From assembly GCF_024494595.1 (NCBI RefSeq), contig NZ_JANHDI010000001.1:310001-374000 (forward strand): 64,000 nucleotides of DNA. Direction: 5' to 3'. This DNA comes from Halobellus rarus. Lineage in GTDB: Archaea > Halobacteriota > Halobacteria > Halobacteriales > Haloferacaceae. This document shows positions 20,525 to 22,791 of the stretch, piece by piece. The position numbers were made by a program, and so were the translations under genes. The notes beneath the pieces were generated by a model. The model was not told the DNA's origin and ran no database searches. It saw only the letters and a list, made by a program, of their open reading frames with translations. Every line of letters starts with the position of its first letter. The first letter of the stretch is position 1.

Positions 20525-21166
20525 TCAGTCGGCCGCGAGACCGGTCCCGCACTCCGGACAGAAGTTTTCGCCGCCTGCGAGTTCGTGGCCGCAGGCCGGG
20601 CAACTCGGACGGACTTCCTCGCCACAGTCCGGACAGAAATTCTCGTTGCCTGCGAGTTCGTGCCCGCAGCTGTCACATCGCTCCGCACCAGCGGCAGCCT
20701 CGTCACCTGCACTCCCTTCGCGATCGGCAGTCTCGTTCTTCGCATCCGTCTCCGCCCGGGTTGCCGTTTCTTCGTACTCCGGGGGAACCGGAACTTCGGT
20801 CGGCGTGAGCGAGAACTCCGAACTCGGGGTCGGTTCCGAGAGCAATCCCAACTCCACGAGTTGCTCAGTCACGTCGTCGATAATCTCGTGGACCCCGACC
20901 GACGCCCCGCTGTCCACGAACAGGGTTCCGTTGCCGAACACGACGACGACGGTCTCGTCGTACGCATCGGGCGAGTGCACGATCCCGGGGAACCGCTCAG
21001 GGTCGTATGTGACGTCTTCGAGTCCCAAACCGATCGCCACGGCATTGAGGTTGACTGTCGTCTGGAGGTCGGCGTACGCCGACGTCGACGCGCCACCGCT
21101 CACGTCCGCGTCCAACGCGTCCAGCCGCGCTACGAGCTCCGACGTCGAAACTGTCGACTCACCCAT
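20525..21166 (-). CDS. Single TBP-like repeat fused to two zinc ribbons
   Basis: Protein of 213 residues with an unusual layout. Residues about 32-108 (NLNAVAIGLGLEDVTYDPE, FPGIVHSPDAYDETVVVVF, then GVHEIIDDVTEQLVELGL) resemble one repeat of TATA-binding protein, including the YDPE-FPG turn; normal TBP has two such repeats. A linker rich in Glu/Thr/Ala leads to two zinc ribbons with Cys164, 167, 178, 181 and Cys189, 192, 203, 206; the two ribbons are near-duplicates (HELAGNENFCPDCG and HELAGGENFCPECG). It could bind DNA as a dimer or compete with basal factors. TBP similarity is from pattern recognition only, and no function is claimed. Confidence 0.7.
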   Translation of the reverse strand: MGESTVSTSELVARLDALDADVSGGASTSAYADLQTTVNLNAVAIGLGLEDVTYDPERFPGIVHSPDAYDETVVVVFGNGTLFVDSGASVGVHEIIDDVTEQLVELGLLSEPTPSSEFSLTPTEVPVPPEYEETATRAETDAKNETADREGSAGDEAAAGAERCDSCGHELAGNENFCPDCGEEVRPSCPACGHELAGGENFCPECGTGLAAD

Positions 21167-21323
21167 ACGTCGACGTCTCGAAAGGAGAAAATAAATCTTC
21201 GGTCAACGGTCACTGGCACCTTCGACGCGGTTCGTACCCCTTCGGCGGCGACACCGTTTGGCCGACCTGTTCGGTCCGAGGCCGTTCGGTTCGGTCCGAT
21301 GGAGCCCGCCCAGTTCGGTCCGC

Positions 21324-21761: not shown

Positions 21762-22241
21762 TCAGACGACGAACTCGAAGAGGTCGTCACCGACGTGGTG
21801 CACCGATTCGACGACCTTCCCCGAGTCGCCGGTCATCTCTTCGCCGTCGACGAGGGCGCGGCCGATCGCGAGCACCTTCCCGTGGGTCTCCTCGGCGATC
21901 GTGACGAGGTCGCCCGCCGAAACCCCCGCGTCGGCCTCGACGATGCCCGGCCGCATCACGTCCGCGCCGTCGCTGACGAACGAGATGGCCCCGGCGTCGA
22001 CGGTTACGACGCCCTTCGTCACCTCGTGCCTGTTCGCGCCCTGGACGGTGAGAAAGGCCTCGTCGTCGTACTGGACGACGTCCGGTTCGCCGTCGACGAG
22101 CACCACGTCGAACGGTTCGTCGGCGAGTTCGACCATCTCGTAGGCGTCGCCGTCGAGTTCGACGCCCGTCTTCGACTCGATCGCGGCCTCCAGTTCGCCG
22201 ATCTCGTCGGCGCGGAGGTGGTGTCGGGATTTGACTTCCAT
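21762..22241 (-). CDS. PUA-domain RNA-binding protein
   Basis: Archaeal RNA-binding protein (159 residues) of the MCT-1/Tma20-like group: an N-terminal DUF1947-type domain (MEVKSRHHLRADEIGELE) and a C-terminal PUA domain from about residue 78 (VTVDAGAISFVSDGADVMR, GDLVTIAEETHGKVLAIGRAL). Eukaryotic relatives assist translation reinitiation and ribosome recycling; the archaeal role is less defined. The start MEVKSRHH at 22241 is supported by a TATA-like CATTTATCGG about 27 bases upstream (leaderless); the frame continues open to 22490 without similarity. It is divergent from the DUF7562-like gene. Confidence 0.85.
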   Translation of the reverse strand: MEVKSRHHLRADEIGELEAAIESKTGVELDGDAYEMVELADEPFDVVLVDGEPDVVQYDDEAFLTVQGANRHEVTKGVVTVDAGAISFVSDGADVMRPGIVEADAGVSAGDLVTIAEETHGKVLAIGRALVDGEEMTGDSGKVVESVHHVGDDLFEFVV

Positions 22242-22386
22242 ATCGGGCCGCACGGCGCGCCGGCCGATAAATGGCGCGACACGGGGCTCCCTCCTTCGGC
22301 TGACCCTCCGGCTCCTGCCTCCAGTCACGCCCCGTCGATCGGATACGCGGACAAACGCTAAGTGACGGTAGTGCCTGAGTACTCGT

Positions 22387-22791
22387 ATGTGGCGCTCCCG
22401 GAACACCCGGGACGGGACGACGGTGGTCTGCATCGCCTGCGGCACGTCGCTCCCGCGCTCGGAGGCGCGCGAGTACGACAAGCACGGCAACCGCTGGGAG
22501 AGACACGGGAAGTCCTTCGAGCACCTCTGTAAGGAGTGTTACCGCGGTCTCTGCCACCAACCGCGCGGCGAACTCGAAGCGCTCCTGATCGACGTCGAAG
22601 AGACCGCCGCGGTCGACGCCGAGCGGACGTCGGCGCTCGATCCGGAGGTCGAGACCGAACGGGCGCCGACGGGTGACTCCGAGACCGGGACCGACCGGGA
22701 TCTGGAATCACAGGCGGCGTTCCTCTCGCAGTACGCCCGGATGGTCGAGGAGCGCTACGGACCGGCGGACGAATCCGATCGGGACCCCTGA
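22387..22791 (+). CDS. DUF7562-like haloarchaeal zinc-finger protein
   Basis: Small conserved haloarchaeal protein, 134 residues. It carries one four-cysteine zinc site, CIAC near residue 15 and CKEC near residue 48, with a C-terminal half rich in Glu and Thr that ends in a helix, FLSQYARMVEERYGP. The sequence between the cysteine pairs (REYDKHGNRWERHGK) is basic, so nucleic-acid binding is possible. A TATA-like CTAAGTGAC about 27 bases before the ATG suggests a leaderless message from the divergent promoter shared with the PUA gene. The DUF name is recalled and tentative; function is unknown. Confidence 0.7.
   Translation: MWRSRNTRDGTTVVCIACGTSLPRSEAREYDKHGNRWERHGKSFEHLCKECYRGLCHQPRGELEALLIDVEETAAVDAERTSALDPEVETERAPTGDSETGTDRDLESQAAFLSQYARMVEERYGPADESDRDP

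Follow-up and report, generated by a model that had tools for sequence, protein, structure and literature searches.

A lone C-terminal lobe of the TATA-binding protein combined with zinc ribbons in a small haloarchaeal protein family

Gene and domain architecture

The window, by which we mean the whole stretch of 64,000 nucleotides analyzed, carries on its minus strand an ATG-initiated open reading frame (ORF; 21166..20525) for a protein of 213 residues, in which an apparently orphan C-terminal lobe of the TATA-binding protein (TBP) is joined to two zinc ribbons (whole gene, 20525..21166, minus strand, as are all features below). The protein begins with an N-terminal extension (residues 1–27; 21086..21166), which is common to the family members described below and absent from TBP, and for which a short strand and helix (8–17) are predicted. 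The extension is followed by a single TBP repeat (residues 28–110; 20837..21085), probably derived from repeat 2 of TBP, which includes the stirrup YDPERFPG (residues 54–61; 20984..21007) with acidic residues at L3.2 (D55) and L3.4 (E57), the positions that contact TFB in TBP. A C-terminal extension (residues 111–131; 20774..20836), with predicted strands and a family motif around E(I/V)PVP, leads into an acidic low-complexity linker (residues 132–163; 20678..20773), modeled with low confidence at residues 139–158, and thence into zinc ribbon 1 (residues 164–184; 20615..20677; CxxCG...ENFCPxCG) and zinc ribbon 2 (residues 189–207; 20546..20602; CxxCG...ENFCPECG).

The initial annotation had recognized one TBP repeat at residues 32–108 and two zinc ribbons at residues 164–206, and both assignments held up in profile searches, with the repeat now extended to approximately residues 28–110. 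The Pfam TBP model (PF00352) matched residues 30–85 (E = 1.8e-6; 28.1 bits versus a gathering score of 22.9), and the NCBIfam TBP models (E = 2.7e-18) aligned residues 30–109 to model positions 106–185, that is, to the second repeat, at scores of up to 66 bits versus cut-offs of 181–347. Sulfolobus TBP (PDB) matched the protein at E = 4e-10. Neither Pfam nor NCBIfam models found a second TBP repeat, such as the two-repeat saddle contains, in the 213-residue protein, and within the same 213 residues there is no RNase H domain after the TBP-like lobe, the arrangement that marks RNase HIII. The lobe also lacks VQNIV, the typical first-strand sequence of TBP. The ribbons (residues 164–210) matched the DZR (2.3e-9) and Zn_Ribbon_1 (9.5e-11) models in two stretches, with their cysteines at positions 164/167/178/181 and 189/192/203/206; a TFB-type identity of the ribbons was rejected, the matches being to DZR and Zn_Ribbon models instead. 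The predicted structure displays the strand-helix-strands-helix order of a TBP lobe, plus added elements at both ends. When the domain model (pLDDT 74–76) was compared by Foldseek, its first 43 matches were all TBPs, a result consistent with, and not independent of, the sequence evidence, given that the AlphaFold input alignments included TBP lobes.

A TATA-like element, ATTTATTTT (21188..21196), spans approximately −22 to −30 relative to the start codon, and 5 of the 7 family members possess an AT-rich TATA-like element approximately 28 nucleotides before the start codon. Such an upstream element is expected where haloarchaeal transcripts are leaderless, and the one found here fits a promoter of this inferred type. 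Purifying selection acts on the gene (dN/dS of approximately 0.2): in the Nei–Gojobori comparison with the Halobellus clavatus counterpart, the whole protein gives a dN/dS of approximately 0.24, the TBP lobe 0.19, and the ribbons 0.12, values that are approximate given a dS near 1.3.

Family members and their genomic neighborhoods

The orphan TBP-lobe family comprises 7 intact members (2 from Halobellus, 1 each from a Salinarchaeum MAG and Haloglomus, and 3 others), to which Halobellus salinus adds a decayed remnant. Its relationship to named organisms places the host of the window in Halobellus. The hallmarks of the family are the N-terminal extension, the repeat-2 lobe, and the PVP-type C-terminal extension, and bit scores set its members apart from TBPs. 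The H. clavatus protein (L017/L050) is 58% identical to the window protein and has an identical domain order, which is shared by the member from the Salinarchaeum MAG (L018/L051; 45% to 48% identity). Because the architecture is conserved at such identities in 2 other genomes and the overall dN/dS is approximately 0.24, the combination of a TBP half with ribbons, to which the initial annotation had drawn attention, is not a product of chance. More divergent members with a single ribbon are encoded by Haloglomus irregulare (L052), a relative (G451), and G187, whereas the G401 member consists of a TBP lobe without any ribbon. Since the number of ribbons thus varies (2, 1, or 0), what stays constant across the family is the TBP lobe together with its extensions.

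A search of 391 Halobacteria genomes with the family profile returned 5 positive genomes, with members scoring 169–262 bits and the best other matches, ordinary TBPs, scoring at most 116 bits; all 5 members from this sample are rows of the profile alignment and match by construction. In a phylum-wide sample of 393 genomes, searched at a stricter threshold that would have missed the G401 member, only the window's own genome was positive. Within Halobellus, the gene is intact in 2 of 17 genomes. The family is small and patchily distributed, and has been found so far in scattered haloarchaea only.

Among Halobellus species, only the window genome (G000) and H. clavatus (G007) carry the gene between sepF and uvrA. 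At the equivalent spot in H. salinus (L069:3941-4081, L142), an open stretch ends in CGHDLAGGENFCPECGTDIAAD, corresponding to the end of the last ribbon, with the rest absent; judging by this ending, the stretch is a decayed remnant of the gene. Other Halobellus species with a readable sepF–uvrA spacer have 68–263 bp at this position, and in the remaining lineages the family gene resides in unrelated neighborhoods, a pattern that fits an older gene subject to repeated loss or movement. The idea that a shared operon with uvrA or sepF explains the function was rejected, because this neighborhood is limited to G000 and H. clavatus and members elsewhere differ. A plasmid search yielded ordinary TBPs and no match covering more than 80% of the query, and a scan of viral contigs yielded a single match, to the ribbon only, so that neither a plasmid-borne nor a virus-borne gene was retained as a candidate.

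Several further observations concern these neighborhoods. In the window, positions 21762–22282 and 22387–22791 encode a PUA-domain protein and a DUF7562 zinc-finger-like protein adjoining sepF, both conserved in H. clavatus. Downstream of the TBP-lobe gene of G187 (L128:903-4951), and in the same orientation, come genes encoding an FHA plus zinc ribbon protein, a VWA protein, and an FHA-containing kinase, an arrangement reminiscent of a kinase/VWA signaling module. The gene for the ribbonless lobe of G401 (L126:4309-8411) has HerA-like and NurA genes beside it; GC3 is lower in this region, which is possibly mobile. Separately, G011 (L130:3116-3382) contains an open frame of 88 codons whose TBP repeat 2 has retained a VQN-type strand (IQNLV); the frame may represent a broken TBP or another single lobe.

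Origin of the lobe

When compared with 67 archaeal TBPs split into their repeats, the window lobe showed a mean identity of 42.9% with the second repeats of haloarchaea, 34.7% with the remaining second repeats, and 27.7% with first repeats; for 5 of the 7 members, the mean identity to haloarchaeal repeat 2 is 43% to 48% versus approximately 28% to repeat 1. All 7 lobes share an insertion of two residues ahead of LGLE, as do all 44 second repeats from haloarchaea and approximately 70% of other second repeats; none of the 67 first repeats has it. Phylogeny had been proposed in the initial annotation as a way of seeing whether the lobe branches outside TBP; in the tree, the 7 lobes form one clade (99/91) nested within haloarchaeal second repeats (99/95). 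Approximately unbiased (AU) tests on the 88-column alignment did not reject trees in which all second repeats are held together without the lobes (p = 0.116 and 0.081) or in which the lobes fall just outside haloarchaeal repeat 2 (p = 0.23–0.33), probably because the alignment is short of columns. Since no placement outside repeat 2 is rejected by these tests, the argument on origin rests on the insertion and the distribution besides the tree. Taken together, these lines of sequence evidence support well a derivation of the lobe from TBP repeat 2, its exact placement being less firm.

Possible function and relation to known systems

To compare the faces of the lobe, we used 11 DNA-contact sites conserved in haloarchaeal TBP repeat 2, having mapped onto that repeat the DNA-contacting positions of yeast TBP–DNA structures. 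Over the 7 lobes, the consensus is kept in 21 of 77 cells (27%) at the 11 positions versus 184 of 350 (53%) at other conserved positions, a modest difference (column permutation p = 0.024) among members that are not independent. The 2 intercalating phenylalanines supply 13 of the 21 kept cells (F190, 7/7; F207, 6/7), and without them the count falls to 8 of 63. Nearly all of the basic and minor-groove positions N159, R196, K211, T215, and K218 have been lost across the family, in which the net charge of the lobe ranges from −7 to −16, and the window protein keeps 2 of the 11 minor-groove contact residues. The acidic residues through which TBP contacts TFB are located at C.L3.2 and C.L3.4 (PMC7221094). 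L3.4 is acidic in all 7 members, whereas L3.2 is acidic in 4, including the window protein, and Gln in the other 3. The aligned lobes have thus preferentially lost DNA-contact residues while retaining an acid at L3.4, a position that contacts TFB in TBP.

Because the DNA face is mostly lost and the TFB-contacting acid kept, we prefer, tentatively and with somewhat less than even confidence, to regard the window protein as a TFB-directed regulator, in which a degenerate repeat-2 lobe combined with zinc ribbons would dock TFB while being detached from the TATA box; a regulator appears to be the likeliest function of the protein. The lobe alone would not bind TATA DNA, and its stirrup would dock one of the cell's TFB proteins. 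The docked TFB could then be sequestered, as sigma is by an anti-sigma factor (decoy), or passed to a partner held by the ribbons (adaptor), the outcome being a changed set of promoters served by the bound TFB. Candidate partners exist, since several TFB genes (7 loci carrying paired TFIIB repeats and 1 with a single weaker match) are present in the window genome in addition to 2 complete TBPs. Against this reading, the stirrup residues may have been kept for folding, the Y, P, F, P, and G around the acids being invariant as well; the Gln at L3.2 in 3 members is a second point, and a third is that both intercalating phenylalanines are largely kept, although a lobe without a nucleic-acid role would not need them.

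The retained phenylalanines would instead suit a lobe that still binds nucleic acid, with the ribbons adding affinity or specificity. Zinc ribbons frequently bind nucleic acid or protein. The single TBP-like domain of bacterial RNase HIII, which binds RNA–DNA hybrid, offers a precedent, in that lone lobes there bind double-stranded nucleic acid (PMC7221094), but the near-complete loss of N159, R196, K211, T215, and K218, the strongly negative charge of the lobe, and the lack of ribbons in the G401 member make such binding rather unlikely. We also consider unlikely a scaffold or dimerization module acting outside transcription, for example in signaling, for which only the TBP fold would have been reused: the G187 member does head an array of FHA plus zinc ribbon, VWA, and kinase genes, gene contexts vary between lineages, and non-transcription proteins also contain TBP-fold domains (PMC10936438), yet it is the sequence of repeat 2, stirrup included, and not the fold alone that has been kept. 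Patchy spread, with few intact Halobellus genes and the H. salinus remnant, is what a TBP paralogue with little function, decaying and on its way to loss, might leave behind, as the literature suggests for tbpC-like genes, and haloarchaeal tbpC paralogues without the N-terminal Phe pair (PMC4230888) point the same way; such decay is nevertheless improbable for genes with a dN/dS of approximately 0.2, frames intact over several families, conserved ribbon cysteines, and a promoter-like element. The suggestion of the initial annotation that the protein is an ancient relic predating the TBP duplication, which the single lobe and the AU values of 0.08–0.12 for placement outside repeat 2 might seem to favor, found no support and is highly improbable in view of the insertion in all 7 lobes, the greater identity to repeat 2, the nested tree position, and the distribution in haloarchaea only so far.

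A narrower form of the TFB-directed regulator, possible if doubtful, would be a dedicated anti-TFB or TFB-redirecting archaeal factor, in which the adapter-binding lobe of TBP has been freed from DNA binding and joined to ribbons; if so, haloarchaea with many TFBs would gain an anti-sigma-like layer of control. TBP is usually viewed as an indivisible two-lobe saddle. A lobe kept alone, with its DNA contacts lost and the TFB-touching acidic patch kept, would represent a natural separation-of-function protein, and the family provides a way to ask whether the C-terminal lobe of TBP controls TFB off the promoter.

A literature search, with most subscription journals outside its scope, yielded no description of a C-terminal TBP lobe standing free, with extensions of its own and a varying number of ribbons: the component parts are already known, and their combination was not found described. 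RNase HIII and RnlA (PMC7221094, PMC3710099) likewise join a single TBP-like lobe to another module, but these proteins are bacterial and have other partner domains, whereas the window protein has no RNase domain and is kin to archaeal repeat 2. In a Lokiarchaeota protein (L078:2647-3960), one TBP repeat (Pfam 1.9e-17) precedes an HTH and an AsnC ligand-binding domain, apparently an independent fusion of a TBP lobe in a regulator; this AsnC/Lrp protein resembles the window protein in its single internal lobe and transcription-regulator context and differs in its partner domain. Double zinc ribbon proteins (DZR, PF12773) share the two CxxC..CxxC ribbons and the ENFCPECG signature, but here the ribbons are a C-terminal accessory, and one-ribbon and ribbonless members exist. 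Haloarchaeal TbpC-like paralogues have lost the intercalating Phe pair of the N-terminal lobe and retain that of the C-terminal lobe (PMC4230888). They and the window protein are both haloarchaeal offshoots of TBP, and a TbpC-like paralogue is a plausible intermediate toward the orphan lobe, although TbpC as described is two-lobed and ribbonless, whereas the window protein has no N-terminal lobe. With the C-terminal repeat of archaeal TBP itself (PF00352), the window protein shares sequence homology, the YxPE-FPG stirrup, the NLNAxAIGLGLE helix, and the repeat-2 insertion; it differs in having one repeat, without VQNIV and with most DNA contacts lost, and in having gained extensions and ribbons.
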